64,000 nt of DNA. It comes from Spirosoma fluviale. GTDB lineage: Bacteria; Bacteroidota; Bacteroidia; Cytophagales; Spirosomataceae. The stretch covers positions 27,028 to 91,027 of the forward strand of contig CAMCXW010000003.1 in assembly GCA_945883625.1 (NCBI GenBank), in the 5' to 3' direction. Below the pieces are notes generated by a model that was not told where the DNA came from, searched no databases, and saw only the letters and a list, made by a program, of their open reading frames with translations. This document shows, one piece after another, positions 8,662 to 20,543 of this stretch. A program made the position numbers and the translations under genes. Positions within the stretch are counted from its first letter, which is position 1; each line of letters begins with the position of its first letter.

Positions 8662-8687
8662 AAAAGAGAGGCTTAGGCCTCTTTTTT
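8662..8687. terminator. Bidirectional terminator between gapA and trmB
   Basis: A 6-bp stem AGAGGC / GCCTCT (8667-8672, 8677-8682) with TTAG loop has T-rich tails on both strands. The trmB stop codon lies in the loop, so the hairpin serves both convergent genes. Confidence 0.8.
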
Positions 8688-9338
8688 GTTTTCTACCCGT
8701 GCATAATTTATGGTATAGCCTTTATCGAACCATATTTTCTCAAATCGGGTCTTAATTCCAAAGTGATCTTCATTCCAAATTGATGTATATAAGTCTTTTG
8801 TTTCAGCTAAGCTTCGTAATTGATACGCTTGGAATTGAGCCAATGAATATTCGAAAAATTCAGATGAATCCGTTTTTAAATGAATTATACCATCCGGTTT
8901 TAATAAGCGTAAATATTTTTCTAAGTAAAATGGAAATGTTAACCGCTTCTTTTCGTCTCGGTCTTTCATGCGTGGATCAGGAAAAGTAATCCATATTTCA
9001 TCAATTTCATTTGGCAGAAAGAAGTCTTCAATAAATTGAATCTGAATGCGCAAAAATGCCACATTGGTAAGTTGCATCGCTTCTGCTTGTTGGCCACCCG
9101 CAGCAAGGCGATCCCCTTTGATATCTACACCAATAAAATTTTTGGATGGAAATAATTTCCCTAAACCATTCGTGTATTCCCCGCGACCACATCCGATTTC
9201 AAGTACAATTGGATTTGAATTCAAAAAATAGTCCGACATCCATTTTCCTTGACAATTTTCAAAAAAATGCTTGGGATGTTGAATAACATTAGCCAATTGC
9301 TCGGCGCATTCGTACTTGTATATTTTTCTTCTACTCAA
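8673..9338 (-). CDS. trmB: tRNA (guanine-N7-)-methyltransferase
   Basis: A 221-residue SAM-dependent enzyme that makes m7G46 in tRNA. The SAM-binding motif EIGCGRGEY, the downstream VDIKGDRL, and the family signature WITFPDPRMKDRDEKKRLT are all present. The start is TTG at 9338: no ATG occurs before residue 34, and MSRRK at this point fits family N-termini. It lies in the same reading frame as folC, separated only by the folC stop and one codon, and is the last gene of the envelope/folC operon. Confidence 0.93.
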   Translation of the reverse strand: MSRRKIYKYECAEQLANVIQHPKHFFENCQGKWMSDYFLNSNPIVLEIGCGRGEYTNGLGKLFPSKNFIGVDIKGDRLAAGGQQAEAMQLTNVAFLRIQIQFIEDFFLPNEIDEIWITFPDPRMKDRDEKKRLTFPFYLEKYLRLLKPDGIIHLKTDSSEFFEYSLAQFQAYQLRSLAETKDLYTSIWNEDHFGIKTRFEKIWFDKGYTINYARVENKKEA

Positions 9339-9341
9339 AAT

Positions 9342-10625
9342 TTATTCAGCTAATTCAGCAACCATATACGTACTGCCTGTAATTAAAATAAAATCTGCTT
9401 GCGTTTCACGCGCTGAAGCTAAAGCGAGATTGACGTTGGCATAAATGTCTCCTCGTAATCCATAAACATTCGCTTTTGCTTGAAGTTCGCCTGCAGATAA
9501 AACTCTCGGATTCGATGCTTGGGTAAAATAATACCGCGCATCTTTGGGGAACAAAGCTAATACGCGATCCAAATCCTTATCTGCTACCATACCCAAAATG
9601 ATATGAAGCTGATTGATTTTCATTTGGTTTACTTGACCAAGTACCTCTGAAATGCCTGCTGCATTGTGTGCCGTGTCCGCCACAACCCACGGATTCCGAA
9701 CTATCACTTCCCAGCGCCCGCGCAACGAGGTATTTTGTCTTGTTAGTTTTATTCCGTGTTGAATCGATTGTGCTGAAAGCTGTAAAACACGCCTTTTAGA
9801 CAGCTGAGTACACCAAGCAATCACACCACGCAAATTTTGAACTTGATAGGTTCCTGCATAAGGACTTTCAATTTTCAAATCACCCCAGAGCTCTGTTTTG
9901 GCAACTAAATGAAGCTCTATTCCTTTTTGCTCTACAGCTGATATTTGTACAAGTTCATCCGCAAAATTCAAAAATGCATCACATGCTTGTGCCGTTGACT
10001 TAAATACCTCTTCTACTTCTTCCTGCCGCTCACTGATTAATATAGGAATTTGACTTTTGATGATACCCGCTTTTTCTGTGGCAATTTCTGGCAATGTTTC
10101 TCCTAAAATATCTTGATGATCATAGCCAATATTCGTAATGTAGGTAGCGATGGGTTCAATGATATTCGTCGAATCTAAGCGTCCACCCAATCCAGTTTCT
10201 ATCACCGCATAGTCTACGCCTTGTTCTTTAAAAAAAGCAAAGGCCATAAGTACGGTCCATTCAAAAAAACTCGGCTTTATCTCTGCAATGAGCGCAAGGT
10301 GTTTGGTAAAAAAGTCAACAACCCAATCATGCGAAACTTCTTGTCCATTTACTTTTATCCGCTCCGTAAATGATTTTAAATGAGGTGATGTGTATAAACC
10401 GACCCTAAATCCCGCTTCCTGTAATATGGAAGCCATGAAGTGAGATGAACTCCCCTTGCCATTCGTTCCTGCAATATGTAAACTTTTAAAATGCTGCTGG
10501 GGATTTCCAATCTTCGCAGCCAATTCCTGAATATTTCCTAAACCTGGTTTGAACGCTTTTTTACCTTCCCGATGAAAAACAGGAAGTTGGGCATACAAGA
10601 AGTTAATAACCTCTTCGTAAGTCAT
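9342..10625 (-). CDS. folC: Bifunctional folylpolyglutamate/dihydrofolate synthase
   Basis: A 427-residue Mur-ligase-type enzyme that adds glutamate to dihydropteroate and to folates, using ATP. The P-loop AGTNGKGSS is at residues 52-60, followed by GLYTSPHLKSFTERI, and the Mg-binding ETGLGGRLDSTN segment is near 145. ATG 10625 is chosen; the frame also allows TTG three codons upstream. It lies 21 bases after the tonB-like gene and directly before trmB in one minus-strand operon. Confidence 0.95.
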   Translation of the reverse strand: MTYEEVINFLYAQLPVFHREGKKAFKPGLGNIQELAAKIGNPQQHFKSLHIAGTNGKGSSSHFMASILQEAGFRVGLYTSPHLKSFTERIKVNGQEVSHDWVVDFFTKHLALIAEIKPSFFEWTVLMAFAFFKEQGVDYAVIETGLGGRLDSTNIIEPIATYITNIGYDHQDILGETLPEIATEKAGIIKSQIPILISERQEEVEEVFKSTAQACDAFLNFADELVQISAVEQKGIELHLVAKTELWGDLKIESPYAGTYQVQNLRGVIAWCTQLSKRRVLQLSAQSIQHGIKLTRQNTSLRGRWEVIVRNPWVVADTAHNAAGISEVLGQVNQMKINQLHIILGMVADKDLDRVLALFPKDARYYFTQASNPRVLSAGELQAKANVYGLRGDIYANVNLALASARETQADFILITGSTYMVAELAE

Positions 10626-10646
10626 ACGAGTCAAAATAGACTTAAA

Positions 10647-11426
10647 TTAGTTTGTTGGGACAATCTTGATCGTTTTAAACCCACTCGCACCACGTGAAAT
10701 ACCCTCACTACGTGGGTAAAAACGGGAATTCTTGATGAGTTTTTTATAGCGCTCTGCCAATGTAAGTTTTACATTGGTCCGATCAATACGAATTTCAGTT
10801 ACATTCCCTCGCTCATTAATCCGAATAAAAAAGGTGATTTCTCCGGTTTCAGATCCATTTTCGATTCCATTCAATGCTTTGGTATCAAATGTCCAATCTT
10901 GTGCAATTTTTCCTTCCCCTTGACCTGAACCATTTCCAGAACCACGTCCGCCACCACCAAGACCCGTCCCTAATCCTTTACCAGATCCTGCACCTGTGCC
11001 AGTTCCACCACCGGCTCCTGCGGCAGTTCCCTGTTTTTGACTGCGTTTTCCAAGTGTTAATGTTAAATCCACTGGCTCTTCCACCTCTTTCGGTTCTACA
11101 GGTACAGGCGGCTGTGTTTTTATAGTAACAGGACTTGATACCGTACTAGTTAGCGGTGGTGTAGGTGTCGTTTGCACCGCATCCGCAGTTGATTGTGTTA
11201 ATTCTTCTTTCTTAGGGGCTGGTGCTGGCGCCGGAGCTTCTTGCTCAAAACTAATTTCACCAATTCCTGCGTCTTGCACAGGAATAGCAGGTGGATTAGG
11301 TGAATCATTCCATATTTTCACTTGCCAAATCAGCAAAAACAATAGCGAATTGATTACTAATGTTATGACCAACGCTTTACGCTGATTGCTTTTTTCGAAT
11401 TTTTTATCTGAATATGCTAAACTCAT
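10647..11426 (-). CDS. TonB-family energy transducer
   Basis: A 259-residue inner-membrane protein. A single membrane helix (about 18-35), a Pro/Ala/Glu-rich periplasmic stretch (58-120), a very Gly-rich low-complexity segment (about 135-175) and a C-terminal TonB-like domain (about 185-259; GEITFFIRINERGNVTEIRI) occur in order. Such proteins pass proton-motive energy from ExbB/ExbD to outer-membrane partners. No exbB or exbD is next to it, although the barrel-like gene two positions upstream could be its partner. Confidence 0.8.
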   Translation of the reverse strand: MSLAYSDKKFEKSNQRKALVITLVINSLLFLLIWQVKIWNDSPNPPAIPVQDAGIGEISFEQEAPAPAPAPKKEELTQSTADAVQTTPTPPLTSTVSSPVTIKTQPPVPVEPKEVEEPVDLTLTLGKRSQKQGTAAGAGGGTGTGAGSGKGLGTGLGGGGRGSGNGSGQGEGKIAQDWTFDTKALNGIENGSETGEITFFIRINERGNVTEIRIDRTNVKLTLAERYKKLIKNSRFYPRSEGISRGASGFKTIKIVPTN

Positions 11427-11431
11427 CAGTA

Positions 11432-12403
11432 CTATTGTTTTTTAAACACCCAAATATCTAATTTCTTATCTTTCTTTAATTCAGCGGCCTTTTGGTAACC
11501 CAAATCAAAATTGGCCACACGTCCTATGCTCACCCGAAAATGCTTTTCTCCTGCTTCTTTTTTTATGATTTCAACTTCAGAAAAGCCTTTGCTGACTAAT
11601 TCAGACTGACAGATCGCTGCTTTTTTCTCCGTTAAAAAACTTGCAGCTACTAAATAAATATTCTCCTCTATCACTGGGTCAACTTTTTCTCTAACTTCCA
11701 CCGAAGCGGGCGTAGCTACAGTGACTGATTTTATTGGCGTAATTGGTGTAGCCACCTTCTCCTTTTTCTTGATTTTTATGGTTAAAGGGCTCAATGAACT
11801 ATTAACATAACGCGAATTTGGTTCTGTTAAAAAGTAAGCTGCCGTGCCACCTACTAAAAATGCTAAGATGACATAGGTGTAAAATTTGACAGATAAACGC
11901 TTTTCTTTAACCTCGGGAATTATAGGTTCCGCATCTACCATGGAAATGGCTACCGGACTTGGAATTAATGTAGGCTTTACTTTCTTCGTTTTAATCTGCA
12001 CCGGCAAAAGCCCAAATTGAGTTAAATCAAAATTTGTTTCCGGATTAGGCTCAAAACTGATTTTTGATTCATTACGCAATGTGAATGTTCCTACTTTTCC
12101 TAGAACAACCTTTTCACCTGCTTGTATTCGCTGATTTAAAGAAAGAGCAAATGCATGAATCTCCTTAAATGCATCTTTCTGTTTCATTCCATATTTTTGA
12201 GCCAAAGCCATCGCTAAGATTCCATCATCAGCACGTAAACGCTCGTTAAATGCAACCCACTTGCGCTTCGGATAAATGGTTGATGTTGATTGATCAAACA
12301 TGAAATCTTTTGTATTCAATACAAAACCCCCAAATTGTGGAATAATCACACAATCGTAGCTTAATAATGATTCTTCAATAAGGGATATAATCGTTTCTTG
12401 CAT
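11432..12403 (-). CDS. HU-CCDC81 and SPOR domain membrane protein
   Basis: A 323-residue protein. Residues 1-125 form the two bacterial HU/CCDC81-like domains (SYDCVIIPQFGGFVLN, then KVVLGKVGTFTL). A membrane helix follows at about 174-192, and a SPOR domain occupies about 245-323 (YLVAASFLTEKKAAICQSEL). SPOR domains bind glycan-stripped peptidoglycan, so the periplasmic end probably sits at the septum or wall while the HU-like part is cytoplasmic. Gaps of 5 bases to both neighbours show it belongs to the envelope operon. Confidence 0.8.
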   Translation of the reverse strand: MQETIISLIEESLLSYDCVIIPQFGGFVLNTKDFMFDQSTSTIYPKRKWVAFNERLRADDGILAMALAQKYGMKQKDAFKEIHAFALSLNQRIQAGEKVVLGKVGTFTLRNESKISFEPNPETNFDLTQFGLLPVQIKTKKVKPTLIPSPVAISMVDAEPIIPEVKEKRLSVKFYTYVILAFLVGGTAAYFLTEPNSRYVNSSLSPLTIKIKKKEKVATPITPIKSVTVATPASVEVREKVDPVIEENIYLVAASFLTEKKAAICQSELVSKGFSEVEIIKKEAGEKHFRVSIGRVANFDLGYQKAAELKKDKKLDIWVFKKQ

Positions 12404-12408
12404 GTGAA

Positions 12409-14112
12409 CTAAAATGAATAAGCTACTCCTACTGTATAATTAAGACCCTGCGTAGCGTAATTCAAATATCGTTGATATTCTTTACCCAACAAATTATTTG
12501 CGCTAACCGAGGCATTGAATTTTTTTGTAATCAGATAATTTACTTTCAAATTCAAATCAATTATGTCATCCATTTTAATGGATTTCCCTGTTTTTGCTTG
12601 CATGCCATAAAGCCCACCTACGTAAAATAAATCTGGAGATACGATAATACGATCCTTAAAAGTTATCGAATTAGTAAATGATAAACTCAGCATCGGCTTA
12701 GAAACCGCATTTCCTTCCGCGAAATCTATATTCGTATATTGATTATAGTCATACTTTAAAATCGATAATACTTTGTCAAAGGTCTGATAATTAATTTGCC
12801 CCGATAAATTCAAAACTTGTACTTTTTTGTCTCCCCCTGCATACTTAATGTCAAAGCGCGTTGAATCACTCGCCGGAATATAAAAGGCTAAATCACTAAA
12901 TTCAGAGTAAGATACCTTCATCTCAAAGTCTAAGTTCCGCTCATTGGATCCTTTAATCCCACCGTAAATATTAGATGTTTGAACGGTGTTTCGCAAATTT
13001 ACTTGCTGCGCCATCCAATTGTTTTCTGCAGCAAATTGGTTCAATGAATTGAAATAGGTTTCACCGCCTAGGCCAACAAACACATGTATGAAATCCGTAG
13101 GTTTGACGTCTAATTTCACGATTGGAAATAAACGCGTTTTATTTAAACCCAATAATTTATCTTTCTCATTGGCCAAATTAATACCTGCCGTCACTGATAT
13201 TCGGTTGTTTTTATACAAGAAACTCGGCTTAATGCGGTATAACTCCCGGCGATTTGTTTGTCCAAAGGTGTTCTCTGACATGTTCATTTCACCCACTAAG
13301 TAGGCAGACAAATTATCATTTACATGTAAGATTGATTGAATTTTGCTATCCCAAATCCATTCGCGAGTATTGTAATTTGTACTTAAATATGTTAATCCTG
13401 AAGATGCGATGTAATCAAATTTGGCATCTTTTTTAGCATTTGAAATACTCCCTGAATAGTTGAACTTATTGTACTTAATATCAAAATCACTAATAGTTCC
13501 TCCTCCATCAAAAATACGCTCATCGCGGCCATAGTAGTGATTACCTATACGCCTAAAACTAATTTGACCATCTAATAAATAGTTTCCCGTGAACGTTTTT
13601 GAATAGGCTTTTGCTTCATTTTCATTCCGTCCGGAATTCCCACCCCCAATGGGGCCGCGGCGATTTGCATCATGATTTATGTACAATCCATGAAACTGAG
13701 TTTCCTTTGGATTAAATCCAAAATGACCATTTAGTGTCGTATGGCCATAATTACCTGCTCCAACTTTCACTAAATTCATAAACTTAGGACCAAAGGAAGA
13801 AACCAACTCATCCCCTGTTCGAGGTCCGATTACCGATGTAGTCAAAATCGTTTTGTTGGCAGTTTCCCACCGACGATCAAAGAACTCATATTTCATTTTA
13901 CGCCCTTTTTGCGTATTCTCAATTTCTGATAAAGGTTCAAAATTGCGCGATATTTGTGGCTGAAGTACAATTTTACGCTCCTTCTCTAAAATGATATCAT
14001 CATTCTGAATATTACCTTCTTTTTTATCTTGAGCCCCAACTTGCGTCTGTACCCCAAAGATTCCAAATAAGCTGCAAAGGATTATTGATTTTGCGTTCAT
14101 TTCAATTTTCAT
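12409..14112 (-). CDS. Outer-membrane beta-barrel protein (TonB-receptor-like)
   Basis: A 567-residue protein with a signal peptide (MNAKSIILCSLFGIFGVQT...; alternative start 14100). After a short periplasmic part, alternating aromatic/polar strands run to the end and finish in Phe (VGVAYSF), the usual outer-membrane barrel ending. No standard plug domain is recognised, so it is a shortened TonB-receptor relative or a plain porin-like barrel. It is 6 bases after the large TPR gene and upstream of the HU/SPOR and TonB genes, which suggests a joint envelope complex. The substrate is unknown. Confidence 0.7.
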   Translation of the reverse strand: MKIEMNAKSIILCSLFGIFGVQTQVGAQDKKEGNIQNDDIILEKERKIVLQPQISRNFEPLSEIENTQKGRKMKYEFFDRRWETANKTILTTSVIGPRTGDELVSSFGPKFMNLVKVGAGNYGHTTLNGHFGFNPKETQFHGLYINHDANRRGPIGGGNSGRNENEAKAYSKTFTGNYLLDGQISFRRIGNHYYGRDERIFDGGGTISDFDIKYNKFNYSGSISNAKKDAKFDYIASSGLTYLSTNYNTREWIWDSKIQSILHVNDNLSAYLVGEMNMSENTFGQTNRRELYRIKPSFLYKNNRISVTAGINLANEKDKLLGLNKTRLFPIVKLDVKPTDFIHVFVGLGGETYFNSLNQFAAENNWMAQQVNLRNTVQTSNIYGGIKGSNERNLDFEMKVSYSEFSDLAFYIPASDSTRFDIKYAGGDKKVQVLNLSGQINYQTFDKVLSILKYDYNQYTNIDFAEGNAVSKPMLSLSFTNSITFKDRIIVSPDLFYVGGLYGMQAKTGKSIKMDDIIDLNLKVNYLITKKFNASVSANNLLGKEYQRYLNYATQGLNYTVGVAYSF

Positions 14113-14118
14113 GTTCTC

Positions 14119-17100
14119 TTATTTAAGGGGTAAGCTTTTTAACTTTAATTTGGCAACTTCAACGATAGCATTGTCCGTTGAATTATCAATGATAGATTTC
14201 AAGATTGCACGTGCCTGTGCAAGATTTTTTAGCAATACAAAGTTCTCGGCCAACAAGACATAAGCTTTTCCAATTACCCCATCAGATACATCTGCGAACT
14301 CATTTTTGAATTTGGTTGTAATCATCTCATTGGATTCTTTGTATTTACCTCCTTGACTTAATTGCATGGCTAATTCAATCTGTGCCTCACCACCTATATC
14401 ATTTTTGTCTAATGCGATTGTTTTTGCTAGCCATTCGTTACGTTGGCCTATTTGCGTACTATCCGAATATGCATCGGCTAATTTCCGACTCATCGTTGCT
14501 AATTCTGTTGTTGAATACAAGTCTAAGGGTTCAACTTCTAAAATAACTTTTCCCACAGAATCTAAATTCTTTGCTGCATAAAAGGCATTAAAGATCTGCG
14601 TATATCCCATCAGCACATTTTCCGGTTCTTTAATTTTCGCTTGATGCATGCGGTAATAATTCACAGACGACTGATAATTTCCAAGGGTATATTCCAATTC
14701 AGCCGTACGTAAAATAGCTTTAATTACCTGTGGGTGTGCATTTTGCTCAATAACCTTCTTGTAGGCTGCAACTGCTTCCGTAGAATCCTTAATTTGATCA
14801 GCCGCATCAGCAATTAAATAATAGGCTTCCACGACATTCTCATCAGTTGGATACTTAGTAACAAAATCTTTTAATGCAGGAATCGCTTTATCAAATTTCT
14901 TTCCATCATAAATCCCCTTTGCTGCACTATATTTTAAATCCATTGCCTCTGCATCATTGGATTCTGCTGCATGACTCGCTTGGTAATTTTCTAATACTTG
15001 ACCAAACTCCTCTGGACGGCCTACTTTGATCAAGTTCTCTTGTAAGCCGATCAAGGCATCTTTTGCAATTTTATCTCCAGAGAATTCATTGATTATGCGC
15101 TTGTAATCGCTAAGTGCTAACTCAAATTGCTCATTGTTCGTATACGCTTGAGCACGCTTTAAAATTGATTGAGCTAGGTACTCACTCTTCGTTTTGGCAT
15201 CAATTATTTCAGTAAATCCAATAATGGCCTCTTTATATTTAAGGCCATTAAATAATACTATATTCTCCTGAAAAATCGCATCTTCTGCAAATTTTGAATC
15301 AGGGAAATTCATGCGAACTTGCTTAAATGTTTGTCTTGCCTCAGCATCACGATTCAAATAAGTTAAGGTCATCCCTTTTTGATACAAAGCGTAGTCTTTT
15401 TCATTTTTAGCTATTTCCGCAGCTTGCGAATAATACATTAAGGCATCTTGATATTTACGTGAAATCAAATACGTATCAGCCAAACGAATTAAAATTGCTG
15501 GATTATTTTTTGAGTTTGGCGTTGCTTTTAATCGATCTACATACGCCTTAAATAGGTTGTTGGCCTTTGTGAAATCTTTCGTATTAAAATACGCAAACGC
15601 AAGACCCATGCGAACTTGTTGGATGAAATCTTCTGTTTGGCCTTTACCACTCAACAACGGGTTATATAATTCAATAGCTTCTTCAAATTGCTTTAATTGA
15701 GACAAGCTCTCTGCTTTTCCAAGTAACGCTAATTGGGTGTATTGTGCTTTTTGAGGCGTATTAATTGAAATATCAAATAACTTAATAGCCTCATCGAAAT
15801 GCTCTTCGTTATAGGCGCGAACTCCTAAATTATAACTTAAGGTTTGATAAGCTTCATTCAGTTTAGGTGATCGGTTTGTTAAGCCTTGCAAATATTCCAA
15901 AGCAACTTTGAGGTTATCTGCATGTAAAAATGCATCCGCAACTAGTTCGACAGCTTCTTCAGCAAATTTGCTTTTAGGAAATTTTGCCGTGAATAATTGA
16001 ATTTCTTGGATTGTTTCTGATGCCCGACCTAAGTCTAATTGTACCTTGGCGTGGTTATAAAATGCTTCCTCCTGAATCAGCGTATTAAAATTCAAGTTTT
16101 TCGCTAAATCAAATGCGTCTAACGTCGCTGCCAAATTTCCTGCATTTAACTGAGAAAGAGCAAGTGTAAATGCAGCATATTGGCCTAATGAGTCTTTTTG
16201 ACTAGCTAATCCTTTCAATTGTATGGCCGCATCATTAAACTTTTTGATCCGGTAAAGGGAATAGCCTAACCGATATTGAGAAACAGGATTGATTTTATTA
16301 CCTGTTGCTTTAATGAGTACCTCATAGCTTTTCGCTGCTTTATCGAAACGCTCTAATTTGAATTGGACGTCGGCCACCAACCGTGATAATTCATCTAAGC
16401 GGTACCCAGAGTTCTTTTTGACTAAAATAGGTTCAGCGTAATTCAATAATTCATTGAATTTGGATTGGTTAAAATAACAAAGGGCAATCCAATTTGGAAT
16501 TTCCCTACGATATTTGCTACTCGCCTCTGCTTTTTGAAAATCTGGCGCCGCATCAGCATAACGTTTATCATTGAATTGGATGACAGCTGCATAATATGCT
16601 GCAGAAAGTGCATATTCTTCTTCTTGTTCCACCTTAATTTCATTGAAATAAGGTAATGCTTCCACAAAGTTTTTTAGTTCGTAGTATGAAACAGCTAATT
16701 TGTATTTGGCCTCTAAATTTGTTTCGGATGATTTACTCAGGTATTTTACTGCTTTAGCATAGTCGCCATTGTCATAGAAAAACGTACCTATTCCACGAAG
16801 TAATTTGATGGCTTGTGGATGTTCCGGGTTATTGGCTACAAAACGCTCGGCTAATATTTCCGCTTCAGGCTGGCTCATATACAACGAGCACATCGTCATG
16901 TAATATTCAGCTAATACCTTTTGGCCTGCTTGCTCATTACTTAATGGCTCAATACTTTCGAGATATGCATTAAACTCTTCCCGTGCAGCTACATAATTCT
17001 TCGCATCAAAGTATTCTTTGGCCTGGCGGAAATGTAACGTATGATCTTTGAAACTAAGTGTTTGTTGGCCAAAAGCCCCCAAACTCATGCAGAAAAAAAG

Positions 17101-17142
17101 TATTGCTGTGATCCAGCTAGTCGATCTTGAATGGTTATTCAT
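14119..17142 (-). CDS. Large secreted TPR protein
   Basis: A 1007-residue protein with signal peptide MNNHSRSTSWITAILF... and then tetratricopeptide repeats through nearly the whole length (for example KYKLAVSYYELKNFVEALPYF, ALLGKAESLSQLKQFEEAI). It is the first gene of the six-gene operon ending in trmB, and is probably a periplasmic scaffold for the barrel protein encoded next. ATG 17142 is chosen over 17175 because a -7 element TATTTTTG (17180-17173) would start transcription after 17175 and because the signal peptide begins here. Confidence 0.8.
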   Translation of the reverse strand: MNNHSRSTSWITAILFFCMSLGAFGQQTLSFKDHTLHFRQAKEYFDAKNYVAAREEFNAYLESIEPLSNEQAGQKVLAEYYMTMCSLYMSQPEAEILAERFVANNPEHPQAIKLLRGIGTFFYDNGDYAKAVKYLSKSSETNLEAKYKLAVSYYELKNFVEALPYFNEIKVEQEEEYALSAAYYAAVIQFNDKRYADAAPDFQKAEASSKYRREIPNWIALCYFNQSKFNELLNYAEPILVKKNSGYRLDELSRLVADVQFKLERFDKAAKSYEVLIKATGNKINPVSQYRLGYSLYRIKKFNDAAIQLKGLASQKDSLGQYAAFTLALSQLNAGNLAATLDAFDLAKNLNFNTLIQEEAFYNHAKVQLDLGRASETIQEIQLFTAKFPKSKFAEEAVELVADAFLHADNLKVALEYLQGLTNRSPKLNEAYQTLSYNLGVRAYNEEHFDEAIKLFDISINTPQKAQYTQLALLGKAESLSQLKQFEEAIELYNPLLSGKGQTEDFIQQVRMGLAFAYFNTKDFTKANNLFKAYVDRLKATPNSKNNPAILIRLADTYLISRKYQDALMYYSQAAEIAKNEKDYALYQKGMTLTYLNRDAEARQTFKQVRMNFPDSKFAEDAIFQENIVLFNGLKYKEAIIGFTEIIDAKTKSEYLAQSILKRAQAYTNNEQFELALSDYKRIINEFSGDKIAKDALIGLQENLIKVGRPEEFGQVLENYQASHAAESNDAEAMDLKYSAAKGIYDGKKFDKAIPALKDFVTKYPTDENVVEAYYLIADAADQIKDSTEAVAAYKKVIEQNAHPQVIKAILRTAELEYTLGNYQSSVNYYRMHQAKIKEPENVLMGYTQIFNAFYAAKNLDSVGKVILEVEPLDLYSTTELATMSRKLADAYSDSTQIGQRNEWLAKTIALDKNDIGGEAQIELAMQLSQGGKYKESNEMITTKFKNEFADVSDGVIGKAYVLLAENFVLLKNLAQARAILKSIIDNSTDNAIVEVAKLKLKSLPLK

Positions 17143-19805: not shown

Positions 19806-20543
19806 ATGAGGTACCTCTTTCTATGCATGTTTGCGATTTTAGTAGTCTCTTGTCAATCAGACACCTCAAAAAAAGAAGCATCTGATTTTTTTCTGCGGGG
19901 TAACGCCAAATTTAAAGAAAAGGAATATTTTGAATCTATTAAGTGGTATACAGAATCAATTAAGAAGCAAAAGGAATTTCCAGATGCGTATTATAATCGG
20001 GGTTTAGTATACCAACAGCTCGAGAAAAATGATGAGGCCTTAGCTGATTTTACAATTGCTTACACGCAAGATCCCAAATTTGCCCCTGCCCTGTTTAAAT
20101 TGGCTGAAACTCTTCAAAATTTGGAAAAATATGATTTGGCCATTACTGAATCCGCTAAACTAATCAAGAATTTTCCTGATTCTGCGGCTAATTGGACACT
20201 TCACGGCAATATTCAGATGCATAAGGAAATGTGGAATGAGTCGATGGTTTCGTATGATCGAGCACTAGCTATTGATTCCCTTTCGGTAGAAACGATGATC
20301 AATCAAGGTGTGGTTTTTCAAGAATTAAATCAATTGGATTTAGCGGAAAAGATGTTCAAACTCGCGTTGCGGCAAGGAAAATATCAAGACTTAATTTATA
20401 ATAATTTGGGATATGTGGAGATTCAGCGGATGCATTGGGAACTGGCGAAGCAATATGTTCAAAAAGCATTAGCTGTTGATCCTAAAAACCCATTATATGT
20501 GAAAAATTGGGAGCGAATTCAAAAAAAATCAATGCTTGAATAA
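19806..20543 (+). CDS. TPR lipoprotein
   Basis: A 245-residue protein with a lipoprotein signal peptide (lipobox LVVSC, Cys16) and five or six tetratricopeptide repeats (AYYNRGLVYQQLEKNDEALADF and similar) filling the rest. It is probably periplasmic and membrane-anchored and takes part in protein-protein contacts. It stands alone and divergent from the cyclophilin gene; its 3' end overlaps menD by 15 bases in convergent orientation. Confidence 0.8.
   Translation: MRYLFLCMFAILVVSCQSDTSKKEASDFFLRGNAKFKEKEYFESIKWYTESIKKQKEFPDAYYNRGLVYQQLEKNDEALADFTIAYTQDPKFAPALFKLAETLQNLEKYDLAITESAKLIKNFPDSAANWTLHGNIQMHKEMWNESMVSYDRALAIDSLSVETMINQGVVFQELNQLDLAEKMFKLALRQGKYQDLIYNNLGYVEIQRMHWELAKQYVQKALAVDPKNPLYVKNWERIQKKSMLE

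Follow-up and report, generated by a model that had tools for sequence, protein, structure and literature searches.

The window analysed here is the whole of a 64,000-nucleotide stretch of Spirosoma fluviale DNA (assembly GCA_945883625.1, contig CAMCXW010000003.1, positions 27,028 to 91,027), and the subject is a minus-strand run of envelope genes encoding a large tetratricopeptide repeat (TPR) protein, a plug-less outer-membrane barrel, a protein that combines HU-like and SPOR domains and a TonB-like force transducer (Table 1). Together with the motor genes exbB and exbD, these genes form a well-supported class-wide trans-envelope module of Bacteroidia. The locus holds four sixths of this module, with exbB-exbD placed elsewhere in the genomes of the window's family.

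Gene content of the locus

Intergenic gaps along the run, calculated from the gene coordinates, are 6, 5, 5, 12 and 3 bases. The original prediction had described four envelope genes with gaps of 5 to 6 bases, which agrees with the open reading frame (ORF) coordinates, and its identification of a 1007-residue TPR protein, a plug-less barrel, an HU/SPOR protein and a Gly-rich TonB is borne out by profile searches and structural models. The same interval also contains folC, which went unmentioned there. This gene follows tonB in many relatives as well, and is probably a housekeeping passenger in the run.

Table 1. Coordinates of the envelope genes, their domains and the two genes that follow them in the window.
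Feature	Position	Strand	Details
TPR protein gene	14119..17142	-	1007 aa from ATG; signal peptide of Sec type, judged by eye; most of the length taken up by TPR-like repeats
Plug-less outer-membrane barrel gene, TonB-dependent-receptor type, ~22 strands	12409..14112	-	567 aa
TonB-box-like motif of barrel, residues 38-56	13945..14001	-	E-[IV]-x-[VI]-x-K...L...[KR], in predicted disordered N-terminus
HU-CCDC81, transmembrane and SPOR protein gene	11432..12403	-	323 aa
Tandem HU-like domains, residues 1-126, cytoplasmic by topology	12026..12403	-	PF18174, PF18175; AlphaFold2 model
Transmembrane helix of HU/SPOR protein, residues 172-193	11825..11890	-	AlphaFold2 model
SPOR domain, residues 249-321, periplasmic by topology	11441..11659	-	Pfam matches of orthologues; model
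TonB-like force transducer gene	10647..11426	-	259 aa; N-terminal transmembrane helix, Pro-/Gly-rich linker, TonB_C-type end
folC (folylpolyglutamate/dihydrofolate synthase)	9342..10634	-	TIGR01499 4.9e-108
trmB (tRNA m7G46 methyltransferase)	8673..9338	-	NF001080 4.9e-71; last gene of run

The window barrel has no Pfam match, and profile searches detected no plug domain in any of 56 orthologous barrels. Its structural model (pLDDT 81, pTM 0.76) contains about 22 strands by our count of DSSP elements, and the closest solved structures are BtuB and other TonB receptors, with BtuB the best match (E 4e-18, TM 0.63). The strands are preceded by a predicted disordered stretch (pLDDT < 50 at residues 20–109) that contains a conserved motif: in the aligned orthologues, positions 40, 42 and 50 are hydrophobic in 56/56 and position 56 is K or R in 56/56. 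The commonest form is E-[IV]-x-[VI]-x-K, with variants including EIVVTTAYKP. Judged by its sequence, this motif resembles a TonB box.

Both HU-CCDC81 domains exceed their Pfam cut-offs in the HU/SPOR protein, with HU-CCDC81_bac_1 (PF18174) at 4.7e-17 and 62.1 bits (cut-off 26) and HU-CCDC81_bac_2 (PF18175) at 4e-14 and 52.7 bits (cut-off 35). The SPOR region of the window protein itself lies below the reach of Pfam, and Pfam SPOR is found in 22 of its 31 orthologues. An AlphaFold2 model (mean pLDDT 84) contains two HU domains, a transmembrane helix and a SPOR fold at the residues listed in Table 1, with HU, DedD, CwlC, RlpA and FtsN as the matches in searches by structure and by profile. In our reading of the secondary structure, the long DNA-binding arm is not evident in the HU domains; with the domains so modelled, a link to the nucleoid through them is doubtful.

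In the TPR protein, profile searches matched TPR families and the YbgF-type repeats of TIGR02795 (135.7 bits; cut-off 90.1). The latter score is spread over five repeat stretches and is read as a match to the repeats rather than as orthology to CpoB/YbgF. Assignment of the protein to PorW/SprE of type IX secretion was rejected (NF052312, 52.6 bits; cut-off 250). In the TonB-like protein, TonB_C remains below its cut-off (16.9 against 24.6 bits), and the profile of its family matches solved TonB C-terminal domains (E 0.0013) and, more weakly, TolA (E 0.066). The window copy is about 40 aa shorter than those of congeners and lacks the VNYG...G motif that most relatives keep after the transmembrane helix. 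Elsewhere in the window, beyond an M61 peptidase gene, lies a gene for a 245-aa TPR lipoprotein-like protein (19806–20543), and TPR genes are similarly placed in many members of the family.

Co-occurrence and gene order across Bacteroidia

The distribution of the module was surveyed in 248 genomes sampled evenly across the phylum, 62 of which belong to the window's class, Bacteroidia. The barrel profile matches 61/62 class genomes, and outside the class it yields weak partial matches and no full-length one. HU-CCDC81 domains are detected by Pfam in 49/62 class genomes, with a few short or sub-threshold matches outside the class; six genomes of one sampled family (f2) fall below the Pfam threshold, and in those read its own profile identified the gene within the operon. 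Wherever the TPR gene is complete (58/58 loci), it forms the 5' member of a pair with the barrel gene, and the length of its product across class loci is 986–1092 aa. In some genomes of family f7, taken for Flavobacteriaceae by gene content, one additional ORF sits between the two genes; it looks PhzF-type by eye and is thus regarded as an insertion, not a member of the module.

A complete operon, in the order TPR-barrel-HU/SPOR-exbB-exbD-tonB-folC and in some cases trmB, is present in named loci of Sphingobacteriaceae and Hymenobacteraceae and in the sampled families f2, f3 and f4. The named genomes were scanned with type-A ExbB (the operon type described below) as query, the barrel alignments being too diverse for this purpose. 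HU-SPOR and exbB-exbD-tonB-folC detach from TPR-barrel in some families, and in f7 the module is split into TPR-barrel, exbB-exbD-tonB-folC and HU-SPOR alone. The co-occurrence analysis that had been suggested as a check therefore gives a mixed answer that is positive on balance, in that the genes co-occur class-wide and TPR and barrel are never split, while other parts separate in some families. Given this co-occurrence and the invariant TPR-barrel pairing, the genes are not scattered independently of one another among relatives.

A second TPR-barrel pair (1006 and 560 aa) occurs on contig C41 of genome G000 (L028:6550-11249), with products 29–34% identical to those of the window. It is not accompanied by HU/SPOR, TonB or exbB-exbD genes, and is followed by a gene for a 218-aa putative lipoprotein. 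A second barrel is present in three congeners as well.

Genes suggestive of septal function lie near parts of the module in several genomes. An FtsE-like ATPase gene adjoins the TPR gene, or is one gene away from it, in 10/11 f7 loci and in one f9 locus; its best family is FtsE (242 bits, just under the cut-off of 265), and it is carried on the strand opposite the TPR gene (L065, L070, L072, L074, L075, L076, L083, L085, L088, L089, L090). Beside or near HU-SPOR in f7 is an M23 peptidase gene whose product has a coiled N-terminus like that of EnvC. In Escherichia coli, FtsEX acts via EnvC on the amidases whose activity yields denuded glycan, the ligand of SPOR domains, and because of this chain the FtsE-like and M23 neighbours form a consistent septal picture with the SPOR domain. 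At loci L255-L260, L272 and L273, HU-SPOR is near dprA, 4HBT thioesterase and M23 (EnvC-like) genes, and the thioesterase neighbour recurs in family f6 (L267-L269).

Placement of the exbB-exbD pair

Neither exbB nor exbD is present within the TPR-barrel-HU/SPOR-tonB locus of the window. The original prediction had placed both genes at this position in related Bacteroidota and called them missing here. The first point holds in Sphingobacteriaceae, Hymenobacteraceae and a further family of the same order, where the pair sits exactly between the SPOR and tonB genes of the full operon; the second holds for the locus and fails for the genome, as an orthologous pair is kept elsewhere throughout the family. 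Outside the locus, two exbB and three exbD genes are encoded in the assembly containing the window (2.3 Mb, 88.8% complete, 86 contigs). One contig (C28) carries a canonical exbB-exbD-exbD-tonB set, and another (C12) an exbB-exbD pair without tonB that adjoins a ppx-type gene, by our reading of the sequence.

The C12-type exbB is found, at no less than 43% identity, in 39/41 genomes of the window's family (relatives of Aquirufa), and the two genomes without it are assemblies of 88% and 66% completeness. In the 30 loci read, its ppx-type neighbour recurs in nearer relatives, and the neighbours differ in more distant ones. Operon exbB is 41–49% identical to the C12 type, to which canonical exbB is about 30% identical. 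In a phylogenetic tree, C12-type exbB branches among the operon and the detached copies of type A, at a long distance from the canonical one, though this tree comes from a quick search, includes a single canonical row on a long branch and leaves the deep order unresolved. Each of the 38 class genomes tested carries a single type-A exbB (operon, detached or C12 type). The window genome's copy is 99% identical to that of a pond 'Cytophagaceae bacterium' and 82% identical to that of Aquirufa ecclesiirivi, which places the window close to Aquirufa.

Since the C12-type pair is present in 39/41 family genomes and is nearer to operon exbB than to the canonical gene, sequence comparison indicates that exbB-exbD is relocated, not lost, in the window's family; a true loss of the motor is ruled out by the orthologous genes elsewhere in the genome. 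That the window TonB is served by the canonical ExbBDD alone is an unnecessary supposition for the same reason, with both exceptions being incomplete assemblies. The relocation warns against calling motor genes 'missing' on the basis of one locus. Classification of the motor as TolQ by profile score was also considered and dropped: type-A ExbB scores slightly better with TolQ than with ExbB profiles, and canonical ExbB likewise scores best with TolQ. Family f8 (L163, L164, L166) has two exbD-like genes after type-A exbB, and a record titled Beijerinckiaceae (L238) contains a Bacteroidota-type exbB-exbD, probably on a mis-binned contig.

Candidate function and relation to known systems

The best reading, held tentatively, is that the genes encode a Tol-like septal module that is driven by the proton motive force and has a barrel in place of Pal. 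It is preferred because septal neighbours, absence of TolB, a motor, a force arm and a TPR adaptor are found together. TolB_N has no match in the window's genome and one weak match among the 62 class genomes; the operon contains no Pal lipoprotein gene, and no genome-wide Pal search was made. A survey of Bacteroidetes likewise could identify no tol-pal locus and did not settle by what means the outer membrane is tethered and drawn inwards in these bacteria (PMC12204202). From the gene set and its neighbours, we infer physical interaction among the products, force on the barrel, a septal location and a Tol-like role. ExbB and ExbD would turn proton flow into force, which the TonB-like protein would transmit across the periplasm by gripping the TonB-box-like peptide in the disordered N-terminus of the barrel. 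The barrel would serve as a fixed anchor in the outer membrane and the large TPR solenoid as its periplasmic adaptor, as CpoB/YbgF does for Tol-Pal. The SPOR domain may position or couple the machine at the denuded septal wall, with the HU domains acting in the cytoplasm. The net effect would be to draw the outer membrane in behind the constricting septum, the task of Tol-Pal in Proteobacteria. The steps leading from gene neighbourhood to force on the barrel and constriction are similarly tentative, somewhat short of probable. The domain content and the neighbours of FtsE and M23 type are consistent with the earlier proposal of a machine that may reach across both membranes and the septal wall.

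Several observations weigh against a Tol-like role. TolQ and ExbB scores do not discriminate between the motor types, and the TonB-like protein is distant from TolA and scores weakly against TonB_C. The transmembrane histidine of TonB and TolA is kept in 6/35 transducers and is replaced by Asn in the window protein. The FtsE and M23 links come mainly from one family, and parts of the module are unlinked in several. In addition, PorE has been proposed as the tether between outer membrane and wall in this phylum (PMC12204202).

It is also conceivable, though unlikely, that the barrel and TPR protein serve as a dedicated transporter or exporter of the outer membrane that the TonB arm opens or loads, with the SPOR protein a neighbour of unrelated function. 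The 22-strand TonB-receptor fold nearest BtuB would suit such a role, as would the fact that TPR and barrel are the sole strictly kept unit and are duplicated alone in the window's genus; plug-less barrels with TPR partners also occur in polysaccharide and lipoprotein export systems. However, the barrel lacks the plug of a receptor, no synthase or binding protein is kept alongside it across families, the pair occurs in nearly all class members whatever their lifestyle, and it is linked to the SPOR gene and motor in several families. An ordinary second Ton system for nutrient receptors, its gene order a historical accident, is improbable. Bacteroidetes are reported to have multiple Ton systems (PMC12204202) and the transducer has a TonB-like C-terminus, but a canonical exbB-exbD-exbD-tonB set exists separately in the genome, and type-A exbB, barrel, TPR and HU-SPOR genes co-occur and form a single operon in several families. 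More improbable still is that HU binds the nucleoid and SPOR the septum, thereby linking chromosome partitioning to constriction. The presence of tandem HU domains, a transmembrane helix and SPOR in a single chain speaks for this coupling, and Burroughs et al. in 2017 reportedly predicted a chromosome-partition role for bacterial HU-CCDC81 proteins. Yet the modelled HU domains show no obvious long arm, and no other part is found apart from TPR-barrel as often as HU-SPOR.

The Tol-like septal reading makes the module a candidate for outer-membrane constriction without Tol-Pal in nearly all sampled class members, joining a proton motor, a force arm, a binder of the septal wall and a barrel that resembles a TonB receptor put to new use. 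Its stronger form, in which the module replaces Tol-Pal in Bacteroidia and is anchored by an ex-transporter barrel that lost its plug, kept its TonB box and became positioned by SPOR, is possible but rather doubtful. Searches of the literature brought up no paper about this operon, and in the library searched no publication describes an HU-CCDC81/SPOR gene in an operon with a TonB-type machine.

The module falls outside Tol-Pal, as it is without TolB, and outside ordinary TonB transporters, as its barrel is without a plug. With the TolQRA-TolB-Pal-CpoB system of Proteobacteria it shares a proton-channel motor pair, a force arm with a single transmembrane helix, a TPR accessory protein and, as suggested by SPOR and the FtsE-like and M23 neighbours, a septal context. 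In contrast to that system, TolB is absent from the genome and Pal from the operon, the TPR protein exceeds CpoB several-fold in size, and there are instead an HU/SPOR protein and an integral barrel that has no plug and bears a TonB-box-like peptide. PorE, a CpoB-TolB-Pal-like fusion, has been proposed for the same missing function (PMC12204202) and is a different protein that does not belong to the operon. The 22-strand barrel, TonB-like arm, TonB-box-like motif and ExbB/ExbD are shared with TonB-ExbB-ExbD and BtuB-type transporters, whereas the plug is missing in 56/56 module barrels, the barrel has an invariant TPR partner and a frequent SPOR partner, and one main copy is kept class-wide, unlike a substrate-specific receptor. 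Both HU-CCDC81 domains, the transmembrane helix and SPOR are common to the HU-CCDC81/SPOR proteins of Bacteroidetes, which are here encoded together with a TonB-type force machine in one operon.

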